DNA of 64,000 nucleotides, from positions 11,185,317 through 11,249,316 of the forward strand of contig JAJEKV010000006.1 of assembly GCA_021234155.1 (NCBI GenBank), given 5' to 3'. Source of the DNA: Isoetes taiwanensis. Taxonomy: Eukaryota > Streptophyta > Lycopodiopsida > Isoetales > Isoetaceae. Below the pieces are notes generated by a model, which searched no databases, had not been told where the DNA came from, and saw only the letters and a program-made list of their open reading frames with translations. Both the position numbers and the translations under genes were made by a program. This document shows positions 9,085 to 64,000 of the stretch, piece after piece. Position 1 is the first letter of the stretch, and every line of letters starts with the position of its first letter.

Positions 9085-9213
9085 AAGTGGCAAGGGGGTT
9101 GAAAGGTTGTAATATGTACACAGGGGGATTTCAAACACATGAAGGAAAGAAAGGAAGGAAGTATATTTTAACGTCTACGGAAAGAGATTGAGGAGGAGCT
9201 TGAGTGAGAAGCG

Positions 9214-10897
9214 ATGGGGTGGATTTCATGGGTAGCAGGGGCAGCGGTGGTATTATGGTGGATATGGAGCAAAATGGTGCAGAGAAGGAAGGGGCCAAGG
9301 CTACCGCCGGGGCCGGCCGGGCTGCCGATTGTGGGGAGCCTGCTCAGCATCAGGCCTCCGGTGTACAGGTGCTTTGCAGAATGGGGCAAAAAATACGGGC
9401 CGATCATGACTGTGAATCTGGGCGTGTACCCCAACGTCGTGTTCTCGACTGCTTCTCTGGCCGCCGAAGCTCTCAAGGCGCAGGACCACGTCCTCGGCTC
9501 CAGGCCTCCCAATATGATCGCCCAGATCATGAACGCCTCCGGTTACGACATGGTCTGGGCTCCCCTTGGCCCCGAATGGACCACTGCCCGAAAAATCTCC
9601 AACACAGAGCTCCTCTCCGCTGTAAGCCTCAAGAAATTCCGCGAGGCTCGCCTTCTCGAAGTCTCTAAACTCGTCCACGAGATCCAAAACAGAGTCTCCA
9701 ATTCCAATTCCAATTCCAGGGACCCAATTGTTATCCGCCATCTCCTCTGGAACGTTGTCATCAATAATATGTCTGAGATGGTCCTCGGCAAACGCTATGT
9801 TCCCAACGACCCCCAGGCGCAGGAAATCCGTAGCATCACCACTGACCTCATGCGCCTTGCAAGCCTCTTCAATATCGGCCAGTTCATCCCTTTTCTTCGT
9901 AAATTGGACCTCCAGGGATCCGAGAAGCTGGTTCGAAGCATCAAATCTCGCATGAATTCCGTTGTCGATGCTCTCGTTTCAAACCACAAACCAAATCAGA
10001 ACCAGGGGTTTCTCGACACTCTGCTTCGGCTTCAGGATACGTATCACATGAACCACCAAACTGTGGGAAATCTGCTTTGGGTAAGTAAATATTTTTCCTG
10101 CTAGTTTTCTTCGATTGCATGCTATTTAAAATTTTGTATTCCTTCACAGCGACTTTTTTACATAGAACAGTGTTTTGAAAACCAAATGCACAGTATCATC
10201 AAATTCAAAACGCTATTCTATTCTTCACGTTTGATTACTTTAATCGGGCAATACATAACGGATTGTGGTGTATTTATTTTTTCCGTGTCAGAACATGATG
10301 GCCGCTGGAACAGACACCATAGTTTCAAGCACAGAGTGGACTATGGCAGAGCTTCTCACCCACCCCGAGAAACTCGCCCGAGCAAAAAAAGAGATCGCCC
10401 AAATCGTGCCACGTGGCAAGCTCGTGGACGAGGATGACGTGGACAAGCTAACCTACCTTCAATGGTCTTACAAAGAATCCCTCCGCCTCCACCCCCCCAC
10501 CCCCATGTTGCTCCCACATTTCAGCACTCAGGATTGCAAGGTTGCTGGCTATGACATACCCGCCCGCACTGTTGTTCATGTCAATGCCTTCGCCGTCCAC
10601 AGGGATGCATCTGTTTGGGACAATCCTGAAGAATTTTTGCCTGAGAGGTATGAGACGGAGGACGTCGACATGCGCGGCTCTGACCTCCGCCTCATACCCT
10701 TTGGTAGCGGCCGTAGAGTCTGCCCTGGACTACGCTATGCCATCATTGCTGCTACTCTTATGCTCGCCAATTTGATCCATCACTTTGAGTGGTCTCTCCC
10801 TTCTGGAACATCACCTTCTGATGTAGATATGGTGGAGGATTTTGGTATTGTCCAGGGCATGCGTACTCCAATATCTGCAGTTGCTTCCACTAGCTAA
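9214..10897 (+). CDS. Cytochrome P450, CYP71-clan (A-type), copy 1
   Basis: Two exons, 9214-10080 and 10292-10897, joined in phase 0 by a 211-bp GT-AG intron, give 490 residues, the usual P450 length. Visible features are an N-terminal membrane anchor (residues 3-20), a proline hinge LPPGPAGLP (31-38), the I-helix AAGTDT (293-298), the K-helix KESLR (350-354), PERY (406-409) and the haem loop FGSGRRVCPG with the cysteine ligand at 433. The single intron just before the I-helix is typical of A-type plant P450s. Such enzymes are ER-bound monooxygenases, usually of specialised metabolism; the substrate cannot be told from the sequence. It is about 97% identical in protein to the copy at 19156. 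The start was chosen because it gives the complete anchor and is shared by both copies. No disabling change was seen. Confidence 0.95.
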
Positions 10898-18890: not shown

Positions 18891-19155
18891 TGAAAATAGT
18901 CAACTTAATTGGGAGAGGGAAGAAGAACGAGTTAATTTTGACATGTTGTGGTTAATATACAGCCTAGAATAGAATATGCGGTTGAAAGGTTTGTTCATAC
19001 GAGGGGGACAAGTGGCATGGGGGTTGAAAGGTTGTAATATGTACATTGAAAGGTTGTAATATGGACACAGGGGGCAAGGCAAGCGAGCTGATACAGTGTA
19101 TTTGAAACACAAGGTATAGAGGAAGAGCTTGGAGGAGGAGCTTGAGTGAGGAGCG

Positions 19156-20825
19156 ATGGGGTGGATTTCATGGGTAACAGGGGCAGCGGTGGTATTATGG
19201 TGGATATGGAGCAAGATGGTGCAGAGAAGGAAGGGGGCAAGGCTACCGCCGGGGCCGGCCGGGCTGCCGATTGTGGGGAGCCTGCTCAGCATCAGGCCTC
19301 CGGTGTACAGGTGCTTTGCAGAATGGGGCAAAAAATACGGGCCGATCATGACTGTGAATCTGGGCATCTACCCCAACGTCGTCTTCTCGAATGCTTCCCT
19401 GGCCGCCGAAGCCCTCAAGGTGCAGGACCACATCCTCGGCTCCAGGCCTCCCAACATGATCGCCCAGATCATGAACGCCTCCGGCTACGACATGGTCTGG
19501 GCTCCCCTCGGCCCCGAATGGACCTCTGCTCGAAAAATCTCCAACACCGAGCTCCTCTCCGCCTCAAGCCTCAAGAAATTCCGCGAGGCCCGCCTTCTCG
19601 AAGTCTCCAAACTCGTCCAAGAGATCCAAAACAGAGTCTCCAATTCCAATTCCAGTCCCCCAATTGTTCTCAGGCATCTCCTCTGGAACGTTGTCATCAA
19701 TAATATGTCTGAGATGGTCCTCGGCAAACGCTATGTTCCTAACGATCCCCAGGCGCAGGAAATTCGTAGCATCACCACTGATCTCATGCGCCTTGCAAGC
19801 CTCTTCAATATTGGCCAGTTCATCCCTTTTCTTCGTAAATTGGACCTCCAAGGCTCCGAGAAGCTGGTTCGAAGCATCAAATCTCGCATGAATTCCGTTG
19901 TCGATGCTCTCGTTTCAAACCACAAACCAAATCAGAGCCAGGGGTTTCTCGACACTCTGCTTCGGCTTCAGGATACGTATCACATGAACCACCAAACCGT
20001 GGGGAATCTGCTGTGGGTAAGTACATATTTTTCCTGCTAGTTTTCGTCGATTGCATGCTACTTGGAATTTTTTATTCCTTCACAGCTAGGAGTGTTTTGA
20101 AAACAAATGCACAGTATTATCAAAACGCTATTCTATTCTTCAGGTCTTCAGGTTTGATTAGTTTAATCAGGCAATAAATAACTTAACGGATTGTGGTGTA
20201 TTTATTTTGACCGTTTCAGAACATGATGGCCGCTGGAACAGACACCATAGTTTCAAGCACAGAGTGGACTATGGCAGAGCTTCTCACTCACCCCGAGAAA
20301 CTCGCCCGAGCAAAAAAAGAGATCGCCCAAATCGTGCCACGTGGCAGGCTCGTGGACGAGGATGACGTGGACAAGCTAACCTACCTTCAATGGTCTTACA
20401 AAGAATCCCTCCGCCTCCACCCCCCCACCCCCATGTTGCTCCCACATTTCAGCACTCAGGATTGCAAGGTTGCTGGCTATGACATACCCGCCCGCACTGT
20501 TGTTCATGTCAATGCCTTCGCCGTCCACAGAGATGCATCTGTCTGGGACAATCCTGAAGAATTTTTGCCTGAGAGGTATGAGACGGAGGACGTTGACATG
20601 CGCGGCTCCGACCTCCGCCTCATACCCTTTGGTAGCGGCCGTAGAGTCTGCCCTGGACTCCGCTATGCCATCATTGCTGCTACTCTTATGCTCGCCAATT
20701 TGATCCATAACTTTGAGTGGTCTCTCCCTCCTGGAACATCACCTTCTGATGTGGATATGGTAGAGGACTTTGGTATTGTCCAAGGCATGCGTACTCCAAT
20801 ATCTGCAGTTGCTTCCACTAGCTAA
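19156..20825 (+). CDS. Cytochrome P450, CYP71-clan (A-type), copy 2
   Basis: Exons 19156-20016 and 20220-20825 are joined in phase 0 by a 203-bp GT-AG intron and give 488 residues. All P450 landmarks of copy 1 are kept: anchor, LPPGPAGLP, AAGTDT, KESLR, PERY and FGSGRRVCPG. About 15 substitutions and a two-residue deletion in a serine/asparagine stretch near residue 165 separate the two proteins, so both are probably functional and the duplication is fairly recent. The promoter lacks the ~190-bp insertion and the 45-bp duplication of copy 1, which suggests possible divergence in regulation. A 30-bp tandem duplication spans the stop codon. The substrate is unknown. Confidence 0.95.
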
Positions 20826-48637: not shown

Positions 48638-51600
48638 TTAGAGGAGTTCTTTGTATACAATATTTGTTGTATATCTTGATCTGTCGACAACTTTAGAAGC
48701 ATCTCCATCCTTCGATTGAATAAGTATCTTTCTGCCTTGGATTCCTTGAGCTCTTGAGAGTGCCACATAGAGTTGTCTGTGACTAAACACTGAATTTGGC
48801 AAATACAAACCAACCATTTGCATTGTTTGGCCCTGGAGCTTGTTGATTGTCATACCAAAAGCTGGAAGCAATGAGAATTGCATGCGCTCAAACTGGAATG
48901 GGGGTTCTGCATTATTAGGCAACAAAGGAATTCGAAATATGAACACTCTGCTTCCAATATTCTTTCCAGTGACAATCTCAGCATCTATAGCACGTCTTCC
49001 TAATGCACGTATAACGAGACGAGTGCTATTGTATAGTCTCATACGTGTAGAAACAGACCTCAATAACATCACAATCATGCCAACCTTCAATGTTAAATGA
49101 TGTGGAGGCATCCCACTCGGAGTTTGCTCATTCAAAAATTCAGTAGGATAGACCCCTGCATCATTCTCATCAACAGCTCGATCGGCATTGTAATAGTCGA
49201 TAGGTGCAGCAGGCAACCACTCTGTCATCCTCTTGTTTACTTCGTCTACATCTTCATTTAGTGGCATAAGGATTGCCCTTTGCACCCAGTAGGATACACT
49301 TCTATAATTTGTTAAAATGTCGAGAAATGACACGGCTAGCAAGTCATTTAAGTCCTGCGACTTGACACCAATCTCTTCCAGAAGACGTATTACATCTGAT
49401 CCAATATTGGGAAACGTGGTTTCAAGTCCATCTCCAACTTGTAGGAGATAATCAGCAAACGCCCTTTGCTCTTCTGCATTTCTTCCCATATTGTTCATTA
49501 CTCGCATATTTATGTTGAGCTTATGTTCCTCAACATGATCCCATATGTAAAAGTACTTCAAGAAAGCATGCACAATTTGGGGTCGATTTCCTTATGGAAC
49601 CACAGATGGAAGCTGACAAAAATCTCCTCCCAAAACAACAATCAGTCCCCCAAATAAGGTGTCACATGACATCACGTCACGAAGCATCACGAAGCGTTCA
49701 TAGACATGTTTACGCATCATTGGGGCCTCATCCCATATAATCATGCAAGTTGCTCTTATCAATTTTGCCAACTCGGACTGCTTTAGAATATTGCAAGTTG
49801 ATGTATGTTTGTTGGTATCTTGAATCTTGAATGTGCAGTGCGCCCGCCCTTCAATAGAGTAGACGCAATTTCTGAAGAAGCAAAAGCAAGTGCAATGATA
49901 CCTTTGGCACGAACATAGGACAACATGGTGTTAAAAAGGAAACTCTTTCTCCAGCCGCGTGCACCATGAACAAAAAACACTTTTCCTTTTTCCAACATCA
50001 CGTGTTCATTGATCACATGGTCAAAAATAATCCGTTGATCATTATATAGGCGGTCAACATCTTCTTGTACCTCTACCATGTCTTCCTGAAAGACCTCATT
50101 CCGAAATATCATATATGGATCTATTGCACACTCGGGAAGAATGAATTCAAACTCCCTCAAAGATCATCTGATAGAATTCATATGATCTTCAATGTCGAGA
50201 AGTGTCGTGCCAAGTATCCGATCACACACTTGCACACTTTGATCCTCTGCAATCCTTCGTGCCTCATGCAAGAAGTCATCGATCATAGAAAGTTTTACTT
50301 GTTCTCACAGTTGTAGTGGATTTGATGGCGCACAATTTAGAAGGATTATGGTGAACATGTGTCGCAATTGTGGCGGCATGCCCCATGTTGCTGCTTCCTG
50401 AAGAGACTGGAGCCATTATGTGTCATCTCGAAGCATCCCACAACGAATGCAAGCTTCTTTATATGTTCACACAACTCTCCATCAAAAGAGCGTAAATCTT
50501 CAAAACTAATTGCACATGTCACGTGGGTAATATCGCTCTCCTTCTGAAGGATTAATAAAGTCCATGCGTCCAATCATGAGAAACTTCTTGTTGTTGGATC
50601 TCTTCTTTCATATTCTATTGGGTTTATCATAGGTACACTTTTTAGGAAAATCATGATAGAGCAATTGAGTAGCTTATCTCCAGATGCATTCATCTCAAAA
50701 AAAGCTATCAATGTTGTCCCATTATTTTTATTTCTTATAGTGTCCATGCTCATACCTTCCCGATAGTATACATTTTGTTGCATTAGGAGATGCACAACCA
50801 ATCTAGTGACATGAGAAAATTGTTGTTGTATTTCATAAAAGAGAATTCTCCATGATGCCTCAGAAGCTGAGAAGTAGCGTGCATTCAAGAATTGCTCAAC
50901 CTCATCATGGTTTATAATGGGTCCTCTGCTAGTAGATGTACCATCACTCGCTGATTCTAAGTTCACATTGATCATATCTGGCCCTTTGTAGACATATTTG
51001 TATAGATATTTAACGGCCTTAACAGCAGCACATACCTCAACATTGTTATATGGCACAACCCATCCCTTTTTCTCACTTTTTGGCCATCATCCCTTCTTCG
51101 GTACAATGGATATCCGTCAACAACTATTGTCTCATCTGAAAATGCACGTGGATAACGTTTTGTATACTTACCATCCTGCATGCACGGAGCATTTGGATTT
51201 CTAGCACCACATGGCACATGCATCATATTACGGGTGACCATCTCATATTCCTTAGGATACGCGTCCTTATCTGGTGTTTCAGCACAAATAATTTGATCAA
51301 TCTTTTCAGCTGTGAAGGGCTTGTCGGCCTGATCCAACATAGTCAACAAATGTACATGTGGCAATCCTCTTTATTGGAACTCAATAACATAGACTTCTGC
51401 AATTATGCGTCTGAATATACCATAATTATTTATAAGATCTACCAGCTCCTTTACTTTCATGTAGAATACTCTAACCACTAACTCTGGTCGATCACTTGGC
51501 AATTGGCCATATAACAACTCCCGCCTAATCTCTTCCCAGTTTGCATTGGCAGTCATGGTTATAAAAAGGTCCAGCCTGCCAAGTTCGCAAACGATGGACA

Positions 51601-53298: not shown

Positions 53299-54096
53299 AC
53301 CTCTTCCTAATTGCTCGCAATTTATCGAACCTGTTTCATCATTTTTTTATTTTTTATTTTTTTTTAATTCTTGCTCACTTAGGGCCTTGAGGCCATGGAG
53401 CACAAAAATACACACAGAATATTCACTGTAGTTTTAACAAAAAGGCTCGATGAGCATCTACTACCTTTAAGTATAATCCTAACTCATAGCTAGAAATGGA
53501 AAGCAATGAATAAAAATCAACTACTTGAATTTTTTATTGTTCCCCGATATCCCTATATGCTTCACACTAAACATGGTTTCATTAATTAGAGAAATTTCGT
53601 TTTCTCGTTTGACAACGAAATAGGTTGTGGTCACCCCTGGGATGGTAAGAAATGATTCCTCTCAACCAAAACAAAGCGTCAATAATACTAAGTTCAGCGC
53701 GAAAAAATAAGACGCGCCATAATTTGACACCAGGCATGTAGCCCAAAGCTGTCATGACAGTAACGGAGGGGTTTGAGCATCATCACGAGTGGTCGTAAGG
53801 ATCGCCATTGCGATTCTTGCGAGAACAAGTGAAGGCAGAATACAATAAGCACATTGTGTGCATCGTGGTCAAATTACCATCTGGGGGTTGTATAACTGGT
53901 GTACAGAATCGCGACCGCGATCTCTGAGACTACTTTGTTTATCCAATTCAAAGTTGAGATAGCTCAAAAGCATAGTGAACAAAAGTTTAACACATACTGA
54001 ACTCAAAAAGCATAACTCGTATTGAACATGAAAACAGGTGAAAATGTTATAACAAAAAACTGTTTACAAAATGCTCAGCACAAAGGCGAAGCTACA
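53299..54096. other. Spacer between Helitron and methylase-like gene
   Basis: No gene is recognised. It contains a T-rich run (53341-53367) and two of the 16-bp palindromes. The 5' end of the Helitron (TC on the minus strand) was not located here. Confidence 0.4.
53800..53922. repeat. Palindrome copies 1 and 2
   Basis: GATCGCCATTGCGATT at 53800-53815 is a diverged copy, preceded by TCGTAAG as in the copy at 57753. ATCGCGACCGCGATC at about 53908-53922 is a near-perfect copy. Confidence 0.75.
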
Positions 54097-55980
54097 TCAC
54101 TGAGTCTCAAATACAGTCTCTGGATCAATACCATGTTGAGCAGCTATTCTTGCAATATGCTCCTTTCCAATAGCAATGGTCTGTGACAGGTCCATTTCTG
54201 TATATCCAGTTTTGTCTGGGATGTCAACATCCATTGCCCGTGCTGCGTTCTGAACACGCTCTGACATATCTTGGCTATTAAACAATTCATCCTGCAATTG
54301 CTCAGAATATTCATTACAGGGTACCAGCTTCTGCCTTTTAGGTGAAGGGTCGGGGGAGGTTCTCCCACTTCCGGAGGCGGCTTCAGAAGTGCCCACATAC
54401 TCAAAGTTAGGAAGGGGCTTGTCCAGTTGCTTGGATAGCAGTGGCATTATAGTGTCGAAGTTCTTGTTCAGGGCTCCTTGATCCTTTCTTCGAAGCTTTT
54501 ATGATCCAGGCCTTCTAGTATCTGTTCCATGTTGCTGAGATCCGTTCCCTGTGTTATATTAATATCAGGCTTGTCGGAACCTTGTTCTTCACGTTGCTCA
54601 TCTTGCTCTTCACCTTCCTCTTCCATGTCAGGCCTTGCCATTTTCTCTAGAATCTCGAAGAAAGATCTAAGGAAACGGCATACCTTGTCGTCAAACTCAA
54701 AAGCAACACTCCGTTTTCCTTGCATCAACGCCACCCTTGAGGCACTTCCGCCTGAGAAGAAATCCAAAACGCAACCTTCTAATGGTACCAGCTCCTTCAC
54801 TATATAATAGACATAAGAGGTTTTTGCCGGCTCTTAAGCGAAGTCGCCTTCCATAGCTGCCCATTTGAATTTGGGTTTACCACGTAAAGAACTCAAATAC
54901 TTTCTTTTTTGTTTTGCATCTACTTCTTCGCCGCCCGGTTTTTGGATATTTTGGAAGAGGAGTGCTTTGTGGTGCTTTAGTGACTTGAGTGAGTCGCGGC
55001 TCAAGTTGGGTTTAACGGGCAAAGACCGAACGTCACTCCTGTTTTGTCACATGGTGACATAATCTTTGGAATTCTTTTATATTTTTTTTGCTCTCCCAAC
55101 CTTTCTCTTCATAAGCCCCTAGGGAAACATGGGAGCTACCTTGTATCTGGCTAAGACTGTACAAACAGTTTGGCAAATGTACCGATCTGAGAAACATGAC
55201 AATATGGTACACTTTTGCATGTGTCATGCACCGCAACTGCTAAAAAATCGTGTATTTTTCACATCCATTGTGGTGGAAAAACTACGCATGTCTACAAAAA
55301 TCAACCGGCATTTTTCGACACCGTCGCGGAACACACAAGGATGCCACTTTTTGTTACGTGCTGCACGATGTTTTGCTTCTCTTTCATTTTCCGGGCCTCA
55401 TCTGGCCTCATTATAGCAAAAATAGCTTCCAAAAAAACTGCAGGCAGATTACCTTGAACTGCCTCTTTATTATAGTTTGCTTTGACGTATTCGAAATCTG
55501 TGTCTGCAATATCCAGGAGACGTTGCTCAGACAGCTCTGGAAAACATGAAGCCAACTCTTCAAAATTATTGTACATCTTCTCTGAGATAGAATTGGCGTA
55601 TGATAACACTTCACGATGCATGAGTGAAAGTGTTCTGATGTCTAGAGCCCTCTGACTGCAATTAAAACGTCCTGTATACCCCTGCTGCACTTTCAAGAAA
55701 ACCTTGCCCTGTAAGATTTCGTCCATCAACTGGCTTACCTCAGCATTGTTCATTCCTCGTAGGTTTCTCAGGAATGTCTTGTTGAAGAATTCTTTTGAAG
55801 GTTTATCTGGTAATTCCCCCTGATCATCAGTGAGCTTTCGGCTTGCCCAATTGTTGACAACTTCTACGAGTTTAGACCAGGCAGATTCTTGCATAAATAG
55901 GGCGCTTCTCATCCTTCGGTTCCTTAACCTTGAGTTGTGGTAGCCACCTCCACAAAATCCGCACCTGAAAAATTTGGTTA

Positions 55981-56439
55981 GGATCGCGGACGGCGATTTT
56001 CACGAGCAAAGAAACGAATAACATACCTTCCAGGCGGATGTCACTGCAGTTCCTGTTGGCCCTTGTGGAGGACATCCGAATGCCTTATGCTGGTTTCTTA
56101 GTTGTTGGAGCTTCTCAATCAGTGGTTCTTTGTATACTGTATCTGCGATGACGTCGTTGCACTGTATGGAAATCTGAATGTATTCTTTGTTGGAGAGGTT
56201 ACCATTTAATACACGACTTCTTCTTTTTAAATATGCTTTCGCAAATTCCAACCTTTGCTCGACATTGCCCACGCATGTGCATAAAAACTGTGCAGCAAAA
56301 ATGCTGTGTTTACCAGAAATAATATAAATTTTTTTGTTTGCCAATTCTTCTGGGCTTGACCAAGTGACTAATTTCCTGCATGTGATCGAGATACACTAGT
56401 TAGTCCAAGAAATTGTTCACGAAGATCGCGACCGCGATC
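55981..56439. repeat. Palindrome copies 3 and 4
   Basis: GATCGCGGACGGCGATTTT at 55982-56000 (diverged) and GATCGCGACCGCGATC at 56424-56439 (15 of 16 positions palindromic). Both lie in introns of the methylase-like gene. Confidence 0.8.
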
Positions 56440-57752
56440 CGCTCGAGCATATTTATATATGTAACCAATATGAGAAGAAAGAAATAAATATGATGTAAAG
56501 ACCTTGTTAAAGGATCATATGGAACGAGATCGGCAGGTGTAAGAACTTCTGTCGGGTATTTCTTGAAGCTTTTTATCAGTGTCTGTACATGGTCATTTGA
56601 CCGGACTCTATGTGTCATATTAGCGGGAGCTGGTTCGCAATAAAAAATGCTGACTCTTTGGAACCAGTTTACACCCATTGGATAATATCTTTTGAACTCC
56701 TCGAGCTTGGATGTTGTCTCCTGTGCCAGTTTCTTTTCTTCATCTGGATTAAACTTCAAATCTTCTGGCATTTGGGGATCAGTTCTCGAGGCGATGATAA
56801 GTGGGTGGTAGGTCTTTGGTCTAGTGGACGAGGAAGGAGTAGAAGACGTCGAAGGTTGCGCACTGTCATCCGTGGGCGCCTTTGGAATCTTTATCCTGAA
56901 TGGCGGGATCCTCTTTGATGGCTGTCCTTCTAGTGCGGCAGATTCTCTAGGGGAGCATTCAAAAGCATGACGGGAGCTGAAGGGTCAACTACTGCAGAAC
57001 AACCAACATTTTCCGAGGGGGCTACAGCAGTTGCTGACGGAACAACATTTGCCTCTATGGGCAATACAGTATCCTTTGTAGTGGATGGTTCGCCAATAGC
57101 CTGCAAAGGGGCCACGGATCTCTTCTTTGAAACAGCCCTGAGCCAGTTGGTGTCCATCCTTGAAGGCAGTTTGTTGTCTTTAGTAGCCTTCAAAGCAGCA
57201 AAAGGAGGTTTCTTATCAGCTGAAAGGCCTTTTCTGCACATGCTAAATCCAACAAGTATATCCCTGTTGCACTTTATACCCGACAAACTTAAGGAATCAT
57301 AGGACGGCAATATCCAGCCAAATCCCTTAGCACTAGTAGCCATCCCCTTGCCGCTTGCCGCTTTGTTGACTTTACTGGCAATCATAATGGATGGATCATA
57401 ATTATGCCATCTCAAAACGTACTCGACAAACTGCAGCCCTAGAGTATCTTCTACGCTGCAAATTATTGCATCCTGTACATTATTTTTGGTGCCTTCCCAC
57501 ATAGCAATTACTATACCTAGCTGCTCGTAATCTTCTGGACCCTTCCCATTCCTAAAGAACAAACACAAGTCCTTTCGGCGGTCTCCAGTGACATGAGGTT
57601 TTGCCTGTGCGATTTCAACACACCACTTCCTGCTTCTATCGGGAGTGACAATTCTGATTGGTTCCACATTCGGCCCGCGGAATAGTTCGAGGGCTGCAGA
57701 AGCAATTGAACACAGGTTAGATGCACAAGTATTGGAAGAAGGTGTTCGTAAG

Positions 57753-57966
57753 GATCGCGGCCGCGATCTGGTTCAACAGTTGCAAACTAATAAAGGGTGT
57801 TACCTCAGGACCATTATGTCTTTGGCAAGAAAGCGGCCGCGTTCTTCTGACCATGAGTGTTACGTTTTATATAAATCGCTCGCCACTATCGCGGCCGCGA
57901 TTGTCTTGAGCACTACCTTTCAGAAAATAGCAAAGGTCATGGTCACAACTATCGCGACCGCGATCG
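57753..57966. repeat. Palindrome copies 5 to 7
   Basis: GATCGCGGCCGCGATC (57753-57768) is a perfect palindrome. ATCGCGGCCGCGATT (57888-57902) and ATCGCGACCGCGATCG (57951-57966) follow. A bare GCGGCCGC lies at 57834-57841, inside or next to a possible small exon. All sit in the first introns of the methylase-like gene. Confidence 0.9.
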
Positions 57967-58073
57967 TAGCGACCATCTACCTATCCTAAAAAGACATGGC
58001 CGAAGCTATAGAGATACCTATGCTATAAAAAATCGCGGAAATTACCTTCTCTGAGGGCGGAGGCGCGAGACAT

Positions 58074-59334
58074 GGTGGCGCTAGAAATTTTCTGAAGGCT
58101 TTTGAAATTTGCTGAAGGCGCTAGAAATTTTCGCGAGGCTAATGAGAAAAATGAATGCCACTCTTTTTATAGACATCGCCATTATGACGGGCGCCATTAT
58201 GACGGACGGCGCCATTATGACGGGCGGCATATTCCCCCATTACCCCTAAAAGCAACCCCCAGCTTAGCAACGTACGGGACGGTCACACGTGAGAATTTTT
58301 GTGAGAGTGACTGTGGGGCAGTCAGTTTAAATTGGATAGGGACAGGCGCATTAGGGCATAAGAAGGTCCCGCCCGTCTTACCGCATTTGAAATTCAAATC
58401 AATTTCAAATGCAGTAAGACCCTCACACAATTTCATTCTTGCAAAGTTTGGGAAGAAGTTGTTCGAGGCGCCTGAGTTAATTTGGAGGCGCTATGTTGGA
58501 TTACAATGGCGCTTCGATGAATTTCAAAGCATCCAAGCATATTTCACATTGTAGAATTCATTGAAGGCCAAAGACAGGCAAGTTCATTGATTAAACTGTG
58601 TTTTCAGTTAAATCTGCCACATGCACCCTTTTTTTTGTCTGGTAGATGCTTGGATGCTTTGAAAGCATGAAAGCATTTTGTGTCTGGTGGATGCTTGGCT
58701 GAATTTCAAAGCATCCAAGCATATTTGACGATGTAGAATTCATTGAAGGCCAAAGACAGGCAAGTTCATTCATTAGACTGTATTTTCAGTTAAATTTGCC
58801 GCATGCACCCTTTTTTTGTCTGGTAGATGAAATCCCATTCTAATTTGGTTATATAGATTGCCTGTATCAAAAATTCTTAAGATGTTCCTGTTTGTAGGCG
58901 TTGATGTCATTCATCTTCCAGCGATCTGGTGATTCTTGAGGCCTGACTAGCGATCATCGGGATCGATGAAGGCGATCTTTCCGAACATATTCTAGACCCA
59001 TCAAGGGTTATTGATTCATCTACTTCTCCCGTAGGTCGTCCCTACGACACAGCTAGTGCTCGTCCGGATCGCGAAGGCGATTTTGCGCAGCATAATCGAG
59101 ACAGGTACGTATAATCTAGACTATGGTATATGCTTGATGTAGGAGATTATGTTAGCTGCTTGCTCTAGGCACGTACAATCTAGACAAGTGTATCTGCTTG
59201 CTGAAGGAGATCGCGGTCGCGATCCTGCTAACCATGTCCTTGCTTAAGCTTGGTCTGTCTGGCTAACGTGAAAGTGCTCTTTGACATCGTGGTGGCGTTC
59301 TCTCTGAGCAATAACGTCCATTGTGCTTGCAGAC
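58074..59334. promoter_or_regulatory. Divergent intergenic region of the methylase/transposase pair
   Basis: About 1.26 kb separates the two start codons. It holds short tandem GCCATTATGACGG units (58190-58225), a direct repeat of about 110 bp (58540-58650 and 58705-58820, sharing GAATTCATTGAAGGCCAAAG), and three more palindrome-like copies. A shared bidirectional promoter is plausible but unproven. No TATA box stands out. Confidence 0.4.
58961..59224. repeat. Palindrome copies 8 to 10
   Basis: GATCGATGAAGGCGATC (58961-58977, diverged), GATCGCGAAGGCGATTTT (59068-59085, diverged) and GATCGCGGTCGCGATC (59209-59224). The sequences near the last copies (TAATCTAGAC and ATCTAGACAAGTG) also repeat. 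Confidence 0.8.
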
Positions 59335-59778
59335 ATGGCTGCCTCGAAGTCCATACTGTTCCATGGAGTCAAAGTGGGCGAGGGAAAAGTACATGCCTTC
59401 GACAAGCACCACAACTTGCCCTTGCCGAGAGATAGCATTGTAGTGTCTATGGAAGTTATTCTCAACGGAAGCATTGGTTTGCCATTTCCTGAACCGGAAT
59501 TGGCAACACTTGGGGATTCTCGAGGGAGTTTTATTTTGTGGCCAGCGCAGTGGATAGCTAACCTTACAAAAGAACCTGAAATATCCACACTGCCTGCACA
59601 GATTAAAAAAATTGATTGGCTTGGGTTGCAAGCACCGGAAAGCCCTTCCGTGAATAACCTTCGAGGCATTTCAAGGGACGAGCTAGTAGAGAAAAGTTGC
59701 ACACTACTCCATGATCGGCGCAACATCCCGTATGCCCTTGGGGTGATCATCTTCATTGACCCTAATCGGTATCGGTGA
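59335..59778 (+). pseudogene. Transposase-associated N-terminal domain (DUF8039-like)
   Basis: The frame begins MAASKSILFHGVKVGEGKV and continues with VSMEVILNGSIGLPFPEPEL, LATLGDSRGSFILWP and GVIIFIDPNRYR. This layout resembles the domain often found at the end or start of plant En/Spm-type and related transposon proteins (DUF8039-like; my assignment from memory). ATG 59335 follows a CAG that could be a splice acceptor. It probably belongs with the transposase that follows, 400 bp downstream, and is separated from it by frame changes. Confidence 0.45.
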
Positions 59779-60192
59779 CATGAGATTGGGAGAAGACTAC
59801 TTGGCAAGCAACCATAATGAAGACATTCCCTATGCGGATAGGCCGACCATGCGATGCCAAGCATGTCTTTGAAATGCCACAGTTGCACGACCTGGTGAGG
59901 TGGCCGATTGCTTTGGTGTTAGTAGACAATGTTGCGTTGTGTCAACACTCATAAAGACTGCGAAACATACAGTCGTTGAAGCAGAACCCTATGCCATGCA
60001 AATTGAGCCTGAAAAGGCAACAAAGAGGGGCGTACACAATGGTGAACCCGGACCCCACGTTCACCCTCCGCGGGCCACTAAAAGCTGAGAGAAAAATCAC
60101 GGCAACTTCCATTTCGGACTTCAAGTCTCGCCATTTCTGCTTGCATCGCGAAGATCTTTGCGCAAACTTCTCAACGGCCCGAGATTGCGTGT
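59779..60192 (+). pseudogene. Linker between the two transposase parts
   Basis: Open stretches in shifting frames (for example MVNPDPTFTLRGPLKAERK at about 60031) suggest decayed coding sequence continuing into the next segment. Confidence 0.3.
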
Positions 60193-62453
60193 ATGCGTAG
60201 GTTCTACTGGAACTTGCGAGCTTCAGACAGGACCACATTTGTTTTCAACATGTTAGACGTCTGTTCACAGAACGGCCTGGTGCAGAAGCTAATGCTAAAT
60301 AATAAGCAGGTTTGCTTGAAAGCATGGCATAGAGCCTATGGTATTCCAATGTCCACATTCTATAAGTGGCGAAGACTTTTCCTTGCTGGTCACAGAGTTG
60401 CTGAGCATGGTAACATGGGCACGAAAAAGCCGAGGCCTCACACTCTTGCCGGGAAGGCCATACTCTCTATGTACATAGATGAGAATGCAGAGACGATGCC
60501 CCACAGATCGAAAATCACTACTGAAGGGGTGAGAGAGAATGTCAAGAGGCTCCCCTCTGTCCTAACTAAAAAGGACATTCTTCAAGAGGTGGACGCCAAT
60601 GTGATGGAGATGACGGGCAAGCACATCTCACATTCTTCATTCTCACGTGGGTGGAAGCAAAATCACCCAGAGGTTGGAATAGCAAAGAGGACAGCTTTTT
60701 CCAAGTGCAATACTTGTATTGTAATAAAAGAGAAAATGGCTAAAACCAGAGATCCACGGGAGAGAAGAGAATTGCAGATGGAAAGGAAGGAACACATGAC
60801 AGCCCAGATCTCTTGTAGGAGCTTGTACTGGTCATGGAGAGCTTTGTCCCACCGATCACCGGACCAGGCGCTCACTATCATACATGATAAGATGGACCAA
60901 AACAAGACTATGATTCCAAGACTAGAGAAATTAGCGAAATCGGTATGGAGAGGTGAACGCTTGAAAGTTAAGCGTGGTGGTGCAGCGATGCATGGCCATG
61001 GCACGGGTGCCTTAGGACATTTCTCACTTTCGACCTTTGGAAGGATGATTCAAATTTTCATGTTGGTTCCTTGAATCATGCTATCAAAACACTGGAGGAC
61101 ACCAGAAGACAATTGGGGCCATTTGAGAGAAGAATCGGCACCGAGGGAATGTGGGGAACCGCACTACTAAACAGTCTTGGGGTTGAGGACAAAAAAACAA
61201 TACCTTTGGGGTAGACTTTGTAGCACCTCCTAAGCGGCCAGCCAAGTTAAGAGGTTACCTCGGTGGCTCTACTTATGACTAGACAATCATGCAAGTAACA
61301 AGAACAGATATCTCTTCTCTTATCTATCCTATCTTGTGTGGTTGGGTGTTTTTGATCAAATACAGGTTGGCTTCATGATGGTAGGCCACACTCATGATGA
61401 CATTGATGCGCTCTTCGGTAACTATTCAACGTTAATGCGCAGGTCGGATGCTCTAACTATTCCAGAACTAATGCAACTCTTCCGAGAGTGTAGCACGAAG
61501 GCACCGACACCATACCTTGTTACCGAGGTTCCCGATTGGAAGGGGTTCATAAAAGGTTACATTCCTGATAAGAAGGACCGTTTGGTTGGTCACTTGGAGC
61601 CCTTATTATTCAAGTTCTGCATGAATGAAGGGTGGCCATTAATGTATTACAAGATGAGACCTGGTCATAGAGAATGGTTGCCAGAAAAGGGTATTCGGAT
61701 GTGGAAAGCAGATGACAATGGTTTGCCAAAAATACCAATTGGCTCGCCCAAGACTGTCAGGCCATATGCATGCCTCAAAGACATAGGAGCATTGAGGTCG
61801 CCCATTGGAAGTACATGATGCATTGGGCTAACATCTCCGTGGCTGGTGTGAACTTCGTGGTCTAATACCTACATGAAGCGAGGTCATGGACTCTTGGTCT
61901 TGCGGTGATGCGTGTGCTAGGTGAAGTACCCCGGGCAATCCGAAATTCAGAACTTCCGCCTCAAACAAGGCAGGTTGTGCTTCAAGAGCCTGAATCTATT
62001 CAGGTCGATCCATTTGACGCTCCGGCTACCTATGTTGGACCTGCTAAGGATAAACCCAAGAATGCAGTGGAGATATTTGACCCATACCAAGATGTACAGA
62101 AAGGTATGTTTCTTCTTGTAAGACCAGCAGATGCATGTCCTACATGGGTAGCGTATGCGGAAGAGGATCCAATACAAGATCCCACTGCCCCTCATTATAA
62201 CGAGGTTTTTGTTTCTTGGTGGGAGCCTGTGGCTAGGAAAGGCACCCCGTACGCTCAACAGTATCGGGACTGCTGGCATAAAAAGTGGAGGCCGAATCCT
62301 AATGACAGACCACGTTATCAGCCTCTCAAAACGATAGACTATGCTTGGTTTGTGGAACCGAAGCCATTAATGGTTGTGATACCTCCTATTGTAGGAATCC
62401 AGCTGCAAGAATTGCTTGCTAAAGAGGCATCTGATGATGGAGATGAAACTTGA
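60193..62453 (+). pseudogene. RNase H-like transposase (GHTHDDIDALFG family, DUF7869-like)
   Basis: 60193-61074 carries a helix-turn-helix-like start (AYGIPMSTFYKWRRLF), a zinc pair KCNTC, LTIIHDKMDQNK and HGHGTGALGHFSL. One frame over, NHAIKTLEDTRRQLGPF continues the same protein. 61278-61818 continues in the first frame with LDNHASNKNRYLFSYL, VGFMMVGHTHDDIDALFG, and a C-terminal part. 61905-62453 holds the last third in another frame (GTPYAQQYRDCWHKKW). HDKMD, the LDN and the GHTHDDID aspartates are likely active-site acids of an RNase H fold. Stops at 61072 and 61265 and frame changes near 61.1 and 61.82 kb make the copy inactive. I know the family from plant genomes; the DUF name is from memory and uncertain. 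Confidence 0.6.
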
Positions 62454-62570
62454 GTGTTACAGGTACATTAAAGCATCTCACACTTTTTATTATCCATAAC
62501 ATCACTACAATAGACTATTTATTATTCATTACGTCTTGCATTTTTCATCTTAACACAAGAGCTCTTACAC
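62454..62570. other. Short spacer after the transposase
   Basis: AT-rich sequence separates the convergent transposase and the first small gene. Nothing was recognised. Confidence 0.4.
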
Positions 62571-62587
62571 TATAACATGTTGAACAG

Positions 62588-62833
62588 GTGATTCATTCAT
62601 CTTCGGGATCTGTAGTAGTGATCCCTGATATCTCATAGCTCATGCGCGGGAAGCCAAATCGGATGGATCATCACACTAATTGATTTGAGGCGCGAATCTC
62701 GGCCGCCCAAAGCTTTTCTTCGCAGGTAGGGATCAAGAAGAAGATGCCTGTCTAGGCAACCAACAAGATCAGAGTGGCTCATTGAGCACTTGATCGCCTC
62801 GATGTGGTTAACTGATGAAGGCGAAAAATCCAT
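62588..62833 (-). pseudogene. Small protein, tandem copy 1, frameshifted
   Basis: The frame starts at ATG 62833 (MDFSPSSVNHIEAIKC) and reaches WLPAHEL followed by a stop. One base over, the sequence continues YEISGITTTDPEDE and a stop, which matches YELNGITSFDVDDE of the second copy. Shared features with that copy are HI..(I/F)KC, a DL..C centre, LDP.L..KA and WLP..E. The protein is of unknown family, about 80 residues, with two conserved cysteines. A one-base shift breaks this copy. Confidence 0.55.
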
Positions 62834-62867
62834 GAGAGAAGAATGAACTTCAGCCCCGAAGTGAGAA

Positions 62868-62877
62868 GCTTTTATAG
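62868..62877 (-). promoter_or_regulatory. TATA box of small gene copy 1
   Basis: CTATAAAAGC lies about 35 bp before ATG 62833. The preceding TCACTATAAAA is the same in both tandem copies. Confidence 0.6.
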
Positions 62878-63160
62878 TGAAGTAGAATTATTGAGGTGAA
62901 TTATTGGGGTTGAATTCGGCGCCATTATTGCTCGTGTATAAGACCGTTGTATAAATACAAGTTTAATACATCTTTCGTATGGATATATATATGCTTTTAA
63001 AACGTGTGCTTGAAAACATGTTTGCTTGACGAATTTAGCTATGATTGAATTCAATGACAGCTTGCAGAATAAGTGGAGGTGGGATAGCACATCGTTACAA
63101 TATACTCAGTTAAGGTACTTGATATTACATCCTTAATCATAATGCTATTACATTCTTACT
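62878..63160. other. Spacer between the tandem small genes
   Basis: The first ~110 bp are similar to the upstream region of the second copy (GTGAAGTAGAATTATTGA). The rest is unremarkable. Confidence 0.5.
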
Positions 63161-63208
63161 TAGTTATTAGATACCCATGTCATTATTACATTATTAGCAG
63201 GTGCAGAT

Positions 63209-63451
63209 TTACTCGTCATCAACATCAAAGCTCGTGATGCCATTCAGCTCATAGATCTCCTGGTAAGGAAGCCAGTAAATATAGACTTTAACACGAGTGA
63301 GCTTCCTGCAAGCACTAGCAGGTCCGTCAGCTTTAGATAAGAGCCATGGATCAAGCTTAACGCCATTTCTAGCGCATTCGCCCAGATCGTTGTAGCTCAA
63401 GTAACACTTGAAAGAGCGGATGTGCTCTGGACGAGGCATCGAGGAAGCCAT
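63209..63451 (-). CDS. Small protein, tandem copy 2, intact
   Basis: 80 residues, starting MASSMPRPEHIRSFKC and ending with an acidic DVDDE. Cysteines lie at the KC and GEC positions, with a third near the middle (SACRK). The sequence WLPYQEIYELNGIT is the best-conserved part with copy 1. There is no signal peptide or membrane segment. The spacing of the two start codons (618 bp) and the matching upstream bases show a tandem duplication that includes the promoter. No family is recognised. It might be an accessory gene of the neighbouring transposon, which is inference from position only. Confidence 0.55.
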   Translation of the reverse strand: MASSMPRPEHIRSFKCYLSYNDLGECARNGVKLDPWLLSKADGPASACRKLTRVKVYIYWLPYQEIYELNGITSFDVDDE

Positions 63452-63485
63452 GGAAGATGAATGGCCTCTACCCCCTCGTCAAGCC

Positions 63486-63495
63486 GTTTTTATAG
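63486..63495 (-). promoter_or_regulatory. TATA box of small gene copy 2
   Basis: CTATAAAAAC lies about 35 bp before ATG 63451, at the same distance as in copy 1. Confidence 0.6.
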
Positions 63496-63730
63496 TGAAG
63501 TAAAATTATTGATGTCAATTATTGGTGTACAATGTAGGGCCATTATTGACCTTATACGAGTGTCATGTACACCTACAAGTATAACACAAAATTTGTATGT
63601 ATATGTGTATGTTAATTACCTCATGTTTGTTGGGCTCGAGAACTAGGTGAAAGTATTCGTGCTTGAGCAAATAAGGTGTGCTGAAAATTCTCAAAATTGT
63701 GTTATTTTATCCAATTAATGAAATCATGCT

Positions 63731-64000
63731 TCACTGTAAGAAAACATGTGTTTCATCCTCAACCCGGCCCGAATCACATGTTCTACAAATTCGATCTTCA
63801 AGTGGTGTCTTTGACCATCGACCTGTCTCGATTTCCAATCTGTGTGAGCTTGTCCTGTAACGGGCAATGATGTGCTTCAGGGATGTCGGCATGTCTTCTG
63901 ATAGGTATGCTTGACTCTTGTATTCATCCATATGATTGATCTGAGTTCTATAATGAAGCAACCTGCTACCTTGATGCTGCCATAACCGTTCTAGTGCCAA
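63731..64000 (-). CDS. C-terminal part of a LINE-type reverse transcriptase protein (runs off the window)
   Basis: The frame runs in from beyond the window. It holds RYRTSSHRLEIETGRW, EDRICRTCDSGRVEDETHVFL and continues toward the end of its domain. The pattern (R.....L.IETGRW, CxxC, VEDE.H) is that of the zinc-binding tail found after the reverse transcriptase in plant non-LTR elements. The reading frame is open within the window but incomplete, so its state is unknown. Confidence 0.55.
   Translation of the reverse strand: MALERLWQHQGSRLLHYRTQINHMDEYKSQAYLSEDMPTSLKHIIARYRTSSHRLEIETGRWSKTPLEDRICRTCDSGRVEDETHVFLQ

Follow-up and report, generated by a model that had tools for sequence, protein, structure and literature searches.

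Does a stretch of plant DNA in which a ParB/DNA-methylase-like gene and a transposase gene start back to back hold a single mobile element, and does that element carry its own DNA modification activity, as an original prediction made from the sequence letters had proposed? The stretch in question (the window) comprises 64,000 nucleotides of the lycophyte Isoetes taiwanensis (assembly GCA_021234155.1, contig JAJEKV010000006.1, positions 11,185,317 to 11,249,316 of the forward strand; G000:C1067:11185317-11249316 in the searched assembly of 1,658,258,908 bases and 1,110 contigs). Our analysis indicates that it probably contains a decayed, once autonomous Sola1-like cut-and-paste transposon of about 10.16 kb with a self-recognising regulator derived from a ParB/methylase protein, which would be non-catalytic in the window's clade, here called clade B. 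The label Sola1-like stands for the combination of a DUF7869 transposase, short terminal inverted repeats (TIRs) and a 4-bp target-site duplication (TSD). Genome candidate totals given below are rough first-look counts, from which only the best-scored places were listed.

Results

Borders of the element

Window positions 53569-63731 form one DNA transposon of 10,163 bases, which is bounded by terminal inverted repeats (AARCATGRTTTCATTAATTRG) and flanked by a CACT duplication. The left TIR, AAACATGGTTTCATTAATTAGAGAAA, lies at 53569-53594 (plus strand) and the right TIR, AAGCATGATTTCATTAATTGGATAA in minus-strand reading, at 63707-63731 (minus strand), and the two identical CACT copies occupy 53565-53568 and 63732-63735. 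Similarity to the copy on contig C1032 (L005 and L006) spans 53568 to 63731 and ends at both sides, similarity to the C996 copy (L007 and L008) ends at 53568 and 63729, and comparison with the C919 copy (L009), whose fetched piece reaches the right end only, places that end at 63732. The C1032 copy is flanked by a TATA duplication, while the C996 copy has GATT(A) at its flanks and a variant right end with one terminal base altered. Genome searches with the two element ends yielded 568 and 919 candidates at first look, of which 40 per end were scored; in six further pairs, fetched with both ends among these scored matches, the flanking 4-bp duplication was exact (ATGT, CTAC, TTTT, ATAA, TTAT, TGGC). 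The common stops of similarity, the inverted repeats and the exact duplications in all six pairs lead us to conclude that the window carries one element. Elements of the sister clade A also have 4-bp TSDs in three of four copies (TTAA, ATAT, CTTA); in the fourth, L003, the right end was looked for and not found. Sola1 transposons have 4-bp TSDs, and the window element, with a 4-bp TSD next to short TIRs, has this feature of Sola membership. The same duplication length is given for Sola2 transposons (PMC3627910).

Some end matches were found in other arrangements. Three right-end matches in the same orientation lie about 6.46-6.48 kb apart at G000:C1041:10233855, 10240333 and 10246793, perhaps as a tandem array of ends, and a further clade B right end with the N-terminus of the methylase-like gene is located at G000:C1067:11271561-11277477, about 22-28 kb past the right edge of the window.

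The two divergent genes and their neighbours

The decayed ParB/methylase-like gene of clade B occupies 54097-58073 on the minus strand, counted from ATG 58073, the start chosen in the original prediction, to the end of the last open reading frame (ORF), with tblastn stretches running from 57772 to 54196; the join from ATG 58073 to the exon at 57772 is tentative. Its layout, taken from less decayed copies, consists of an N-terminal conserved region without a known domain or Pfam match (56951-57772, minus strand; 97.8% identity to the C1032 copy; 2975 first-look genome candidates, best 138 scored), a ParB-like exon with an SGKHS motif (56006-56377, minus strand; 75.8% identity to the C996 exon), a long linker, a methyltransferase-like region (54498-55900 with the linker, minus strand; motif I LDFFSGGSAS, VDMRSF at the position of motif IV) and a C-terminal tail.

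On the opposite strand, the decayed transposase gene extends over 59335-62453 (tblastn 59308-62450) and comprises a helix-turn-helix (HTH)-like part, GHTHDDIDALFG and a C-terminal region. The stretch 61279-61818 matches DUF7869 (PF25273) with an E-value of 1.5e-29 and 103.4 bits, against a curated cut-off of 26, and a first look through the genome gave 9,909 candidates of this family (best 150 scored). Sequence alignment of clades A and B brings together acidic residues in three places, namely the D of DxMDQ, LQLDN and HTHDxID, as candidates for the acidic triad of a putative RNase H-like DDE/D fold. A profile search of solved structures with the transposase gave a best E-value of 0.3 to an unrelated protein, and a literature search in full texts, with few subscription journals, yielded no paper naming DUF7869. 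Membership in Kyakuja-Dileera-Zisupton, for which Pfam includes a profile, was considered and rejected, as no such profile occurred among the Pfam matches of the window or its relatives. Inside the right end lie two paralogous small genes on the minus strand, at 62633-62887 and 63209-63478 (36% identity, E-value 1e-13), both of which are present in all three other copies inspected (C1032, C996 and C919; the second in two frames in L005).

Much of what the original prediction had read from the letters was thus recovered: both back-to-back starts, ATG 58073 (minus) and ATG 59335 (plus), are present in the sequence, each gene is decayed and reads in two or three frames in tblastn against less decayed copies, the plus-strand gene is a transposase by its DUF7869 match, the small downstream genes are two paralogues within the element, and the suspected large element exists as a single unit in which shared TIRs and TSDs enclose both genes.

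The divergent arrangement is not limited to the window. For the genome-wide comparison, 150, 138, 121 and 150 scored places were used, the best of 1,444, 2,975, 10,823 and 9,909 candidates, respectively. At least 24 of the 150 clade A methylase matches had a listed DUF7869 match no more than 15 kb away, with divergent orientation in 22 cases, and the same was found for at least 28 of the 138 clade B gene matches, 27 of them divergent, so that 49 of 52 neighbour pairs among the matches listed are divergent. Cross-clade combinations, which served as a built-in control, gave any neighbour in only 1 of 150 and 1 of 138 cases. Most of the scored methylase-type places had no partner among the matches listed. 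Six DUF7869 loci for which the lists showed no partner (ranks 1-5 and 20) were inspected: four have a ParB-plus-methylase gene upstream (at L036 as fragments only), and at L035 and L037 none was found within 6.5 kb. The predicted divergent pair therefore recurs in two clades, and with these pairs and the four loci with an upstream partner, the genomic copies of the two genes are not found only apart from each other.

Elsewhere in the window, two closely similar tandem genes about 10 kb apart (9208-10897 and 19150-20825, plus strand) have motifs from which we take them to be cytochrome P450-like, and an ORF at 48638-49591 (minus strand) presumably represents a Helitron helicase end, again by motif.

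Sister clades with an intact methylase motif

The last exon of the clade A gene matches PF01555 with an E-value of 2.1e-17 and a PHROG DNA methyltransferase with 5.5e-21; a match to the CcrM model (1.4e-11) is far below that model's own cut-off, and a profile search of solved enzymes returned CcrM (2.6e-9) and MboIIA (2e-8). In clades A, C and D the motif IV sequence is ADLPYG or ADIPYG; D[L/I]PYG is kept except at L031, where it is broken, and L030, which gave no match, and a fragment at L036 reads CDIPYG. Clade A hence combines a PF01555 match with the [DNS]-x-P-Y form of motif IV that marks N6_N4 DNA methyltransferases. Its ParB part matches PF20188 (E-value 0.0023) and TIGR03764 (0.0011), both below cut-off, and a Pfam search gave no PF02195 match. 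In the predicted structure, residues 251-390 reach block means of the predicted local distance difference test (pLDDT) of 57-87, and Foldseek placed sulfiredoxin (Srx) or Prx-Srx entries at ranks 1-9 and ParB-like entries at ranks 10-15 (probability 0.84-1.00, best E-value 2.0e-3), as expected of a ParB/Srx fold. By these sequence and structure-prediction tests, the clade A protein is a genuine ParB-methylase.

No close relative of it emerged from searches of phages, bacterial genomes and viral contigs. The clade A ParB ORF found nothing among phages at an E-value of 10 or below in one search and only matches at 6-9 in another, the exon with methylase motif I matched 729 phage records, of which none had 80% coverage, and scans of bacterial genomes with two peptide patterns and of viral contigs with the ParB part gave no relative. 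Methylase relatives in viral contigs were set aside; they comprised three loci, and the two that were read are prokaryotic-type methylases without a ParB part.

Loss of motif IV and retention of the protein in clade B

The ADLPYGF of clade A corresponds to LIFVDMRSFST in the window. Nine other clade B copies are readable at this position (L045, L007, L053, L054, L046, L047, L048, L049, L052) and have VDMRSF, IDMRRF, IDMRSF, IDMCSF, IDMHAF, IDMRAF, IDIRGM, IDIRGI or MDIRGI, so that the P-Y of motif IV is absent in 10 of 10 readable copies including the window; L051, which is broken there, and L050 and L009, which end before the motif, were left out of this count. With neither a Pfam match nor motif IV, clade B lacks the marks of an N6_N4 methyltransferase that clade A bears. 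Motif I is altered but present (FSGGS, FSAGT, FSTGT, FSAGI), and over this motif the clade B profile aligns with that of clade A (hhalign E-value 9.7e-5, probability 58). The ParB part of clade B has no Pfam match, either in the window or in its relatives. When solved structures were searched with the clade B profile, 75 matches came up. The 60 best-ranked of them, a cytochrome c555 entry (7e-5) and cytochrome c peroxidases (0.0066 or above), align with linker positions 83-146 and were dismissed as chance.

Between subclades of clade B, the methylase region has a nonsynonymous divergence (dN) of 0.20-0.25, while the synonymous divergence (dS) lies beyond the Jukes-Cantor limit in all three comparisons, and third codon positions changed by 0.54-0.60 versus 0.14-0.25 at positions 1 and 2, a two- to four-fold excess. 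As dN is far below dS and third positions changed in excess, this region has evidently been kept for some function, and, judged by these substitution patterns, the clade B protein is one that evolved under purifying selection. The dN/dS ratio between the window and the C1032 copy is 0.56-0.75 in three segments, as expected of copies decaying after insertion. The window's clade thus appears to have lost the catalytic motif yet kept the protein.

Clade-specific palindromes

Each clade has one repeated palindrome set, best described by 6-base arms and a 2-base centre: TGTATTCNNGAATACA in clade A, GTATGANNTCATAC in clade C, GTATAANNTTATAC in clade D and ATCGCGNNCGCGAT in clade B. Clades A and B are separated by their genes, and the palindromes themselves contribute to the separation of C and D. 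In the window ATCGCGNNCGCGAT occurs six times by pattern search, as ATCGCGACCGCGAT at 53908-53921, at 56425-56438, where it adjoins the ParB-like exon and is probably intronic, and at 57951-57964, as ATCGCGGCCGCGAT at 57754-57767 and 57888-57901, and as ATCGCGGTCGCGAT at 59210-59223. All six lie within the element, which agrees with the earlier observation of palindromes marking both genes; with one mismatch allowed, TCGCGNNCGCGA has eight window matches, seven of them in the element, where 0.16 were expected.

At the same tolerance of one mismatch, the clade A pattern has 117 sites in 12 loci (only two in L004), that of clade C 14 sites in two loci and that of clade D 47 sites in three of four loci (none in L035), and not one of these sites falls in a protein-matched stretch. 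The clade B pattern was counted 91 times, in 19 stretches from 17 elements; eight of these sites lie in protein-matched stretches, which may reflect ORF queries running over into introns. Matches inside elements of the other classes number 0 for the A, C and B patterns and 8 for the D pattern. Over the whole genome, the exact clade A pattern was counted 6,502 times, compared with 6 for a reversed-pattern control, and a 16-base form of the clade B palindrome 838 times, compared with 1 for its control. Among 50 listed clade B sites, 18 have a listed gene or end match at a distance of up to 8 kb (about 0.0025 expected per site), a lower bound, as the listed gene matches and 20 of 80 end matches entered the count. 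Perfect 10-mer palindromes are not in excess in clade B because the centre of its palindrome is often asymmetric. The outer frame GTAT-N6-ATAC is common to clades A, C and D (112, 18 and 43 sites) and is absent from the 98,166 clade B bases searched. The elements thus have one feature of VANC-type systems, namely motif sets of their own in non-coding DNA, and the clade-specific sets suggest putative self-recognition sites that co-evolve with the elements.

Of the 79 clade A intervals between sites that span 15-70 bases, 65 measure 41-43 bases, i.e. four helical turns. Random sets reached the observed phasing 0 times per 5000 for A, 3 for D, 577 for B and 1322 for C (99 for A and 459 for D when each distance was counted once). 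The test drew on 11 of the 12 loci of clade A, 9 of the 19 stretches of clade B, both loci of clade C and three of the four of clade D. Two further arrays were noted: the clade A palindromes at L001 4979-5330 form one 352-base inverted repeat with arms of 176 bases that are 95% complementary, and at G000:C85:126900-127119 the spacing of five clade B palindromes follows multiples of 34 bases, with the nearest listed clade B match 10.7-10.9 kb away.

Discussion

Our results are best accommodated by an element whose own ParB/methylase-like protein would bind its clade's palindromes in the promoter stretch shared by the two genes and in introns. From the shared stretch a protein of the ParB type would regulate both divergent genes, and binding to palindromes would let it tell DNA of its own family from foreign DNA. 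The proteins of clades A, C and D would probably methylate DNA as well, at N6 of adenine or N4 of cytosine, whereas in clade B catalysis would have been dropped and the protein retained to act without catalysis, as a regulator that binds DNA or as an anti-silencing factor, a logic comparable to that of VANC in the VANDAL elements of Arabidopsis. That the methylase-like gene was kept after its apparent loss of the catalytic motif, along with palindromes specific to the element, is a hint of self-recognition of DNA by elements of this kind. A further step is possible, if doubtful: the methylase-derived protein may co-evolve with its own operators, GTAT-N6-ATAC (cores TCNNGA, GAATTC, AAATTT) in the motif-intact clades and the CpG-rich ATCGCG-NN-CGCGAT in the motif-lost clade, so that a writer became a non-catalytic self-recognition factor that possibly reads host CG methylation.

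The modification activity that the original prediction had ascribed to the window element is plausible for its relatives and probably wrong for the window's clade, because motif IV is replaced in all readable clade B copies (VDMRSF in the window). The ParB/sulfiredoxin wording was borne out for clade A, where Foldseek returned both kinds of entries, and a ParB/sulfiredoxin plus methylase origin of the window gene gains support through the sister clades, although not from the window copy itself. There, the proposed HMM check for ParB and N6_N4_Mtase found no Pfam match at an E-value of 0.1 or below in any of six minus-strand ORFs, an outcome that the original prediction had named as refuting it and that is overcome only via the relatives; the best methylase hint is a PHROG methyltransferase (E-value 0.013), and both domain calls derive from the sister clades and from weak profile matches to them.

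This failure of the window ORFs weighs against the reading of a ParB/methylase-derived regulator, as do several other results. Between clades A and B, the motif IV region aligns poorly (hhalign E-value 0.21, probability 0.3), and the likeness of the ParB parts amounts to one short motif (GNHS/GKHS; probability 4, E-value 0.01). For the putative methyltransferase fold of clade B, AlphaFold reached a pLDDT of only 31; the whole clade A model has a mean pLDDT of 51.5 and a predicted template modelling score of 0.37, with fair quality confined to the ParB part, for which Foldseek gave no match at an E-value of 0.001 or below. Regarding the palindromes, the non-coding placement in clade A was read in 12 loci, compared with 6,502 sites in the genome, 32 of the 50 listed clade B sites are unexplained by nearby matches, and helical phasing was rejected as a general rule, being strong in A, weak in D and absent in B and C. 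Moreover, L037 has clade D palindromes with no methylase gene within 6.5 kb, and L035 has neither.

This last locus pair also bears on a different assignment of roles, in which the palindromes are bound by the transposase, through its HTH-like part, or by a host factor, leaving the ParB/methylase-like gene with another role. The palindromes of L037 speak for such a division of labour. Transposase binding sites usually lie at element ends, however, and in the loci read most palindromes occupy introns or the promoter stretch between the divergent genes instead of lying near the TIRs, which makes this assignment rather unlikely. That the clade B partner is still an active DNA methylase with a changed motif IV, modifying the element as phage ParB-methylases might, would agree with the retained motif I-like LDFFSGGSAS, with purifying selection in clade B and with the catalytic appearance of the sister clades. 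We regard it as improbable in view of the loss of P-Y in 10 of 10 copies (DMRSF, DMRRF, DMCSF, DMHAF, DMRAF, DIRGM, DIRGI) and a motif I that itself varies (FSGGS, FSAGT, FSTGT, FSAGI).

Finally, the two genes might be separate mobile or host genes that became neighbours in the window by accident. The rough totals of transposase candidates (9,909-10,823) exceed those of partner candidates (1,444-2,975), so that many loci may be partnerless, as were two of the six sampled transposase loci. Against this stand the common TIR/TSD borders that enclose both genes in the window and in the C1032 copy and the divergent pairing in two clades, which leave a merely accidental neighbourhood with a negligible chance. 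We therefore retain the Sola1-like transposon with a self-recognising regulator as the probable identity of the window element. Of the related clades, some have the catalytic motif and one lacks it, and every clade has a palindrome of its own; this is a natural experiment with which the question of whether such proteins modify DNA or only bind it becomes directly testable. The Isoetes taiwanensis genome was assembled from Nanopore reads (PMC8566536), and these existing reads are also usable for this question.

Several known systems share parts of this organisation. VANC, which is not known to be a ParB/methylase protein, serves elements that resemble those of Isoetes in having element-specific short motifs, dense in non-coding parts and introns and differing between related families. 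It binds these family-specific motifs and lowers DNA methylation of VANDAL elements (PMC5735166); unlike them, the Isoetes motifs are palindromes, known here from sequence alone. Transposons carrying TET/JBP or DNMT genes are likewise mobile elements with a DNA-modifying enzyme, although the enzyme families and transposon types are different (PMC12730594, PMC5890265). Phage and bacterial ParB-methylases have the same fusion of a ParB/Srx fold with an N6_N4 or other adenine methyltransferase (PMC12704722, PMC5512222), but they are prokaryotic and have no transposase partner. Sola1-1_Ec32 of Ectocarpus resembles the Isoetes element: it, too, is a large DNA transposon, and opposite its transposase, on the other strand, lies a gene that joins a ParB-like part to an N4/N6 DNA methyltransferase. 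Its authors proposed that proteins of this type might bind the transposon encoding them and modify it, and they pointed to similar proteins from green and red algae with reference to Iyer 2011 and Petroll 2025 (PMC12477816). It differs in its brown algal host and its size of 21.5 kb, the likeness being one of described gene organisation, and the accessible part of that account makes no mention of palindrome sets or lost catalysis. A ParB-methylase opposite a transposase is thus not new in kind, having been published for algal transposons. Our literature search, in full texts that leave most subscription journals outside coverage, found no land-plant report of this arrangement; as the search was not aimed at palindromes or lost catalysis in ParB-methylase transposons, the newness of these two is uncontradicted. 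Three features appear to be new: the host lineage, a vascular plant; the absence of the catalytic motif as a conserved trait of clade B; and the palindrome sets specific to each clade. The Isoetes elements extend ParB-methylase transposons from algae to a vascular plant and supply many copies for comparison.

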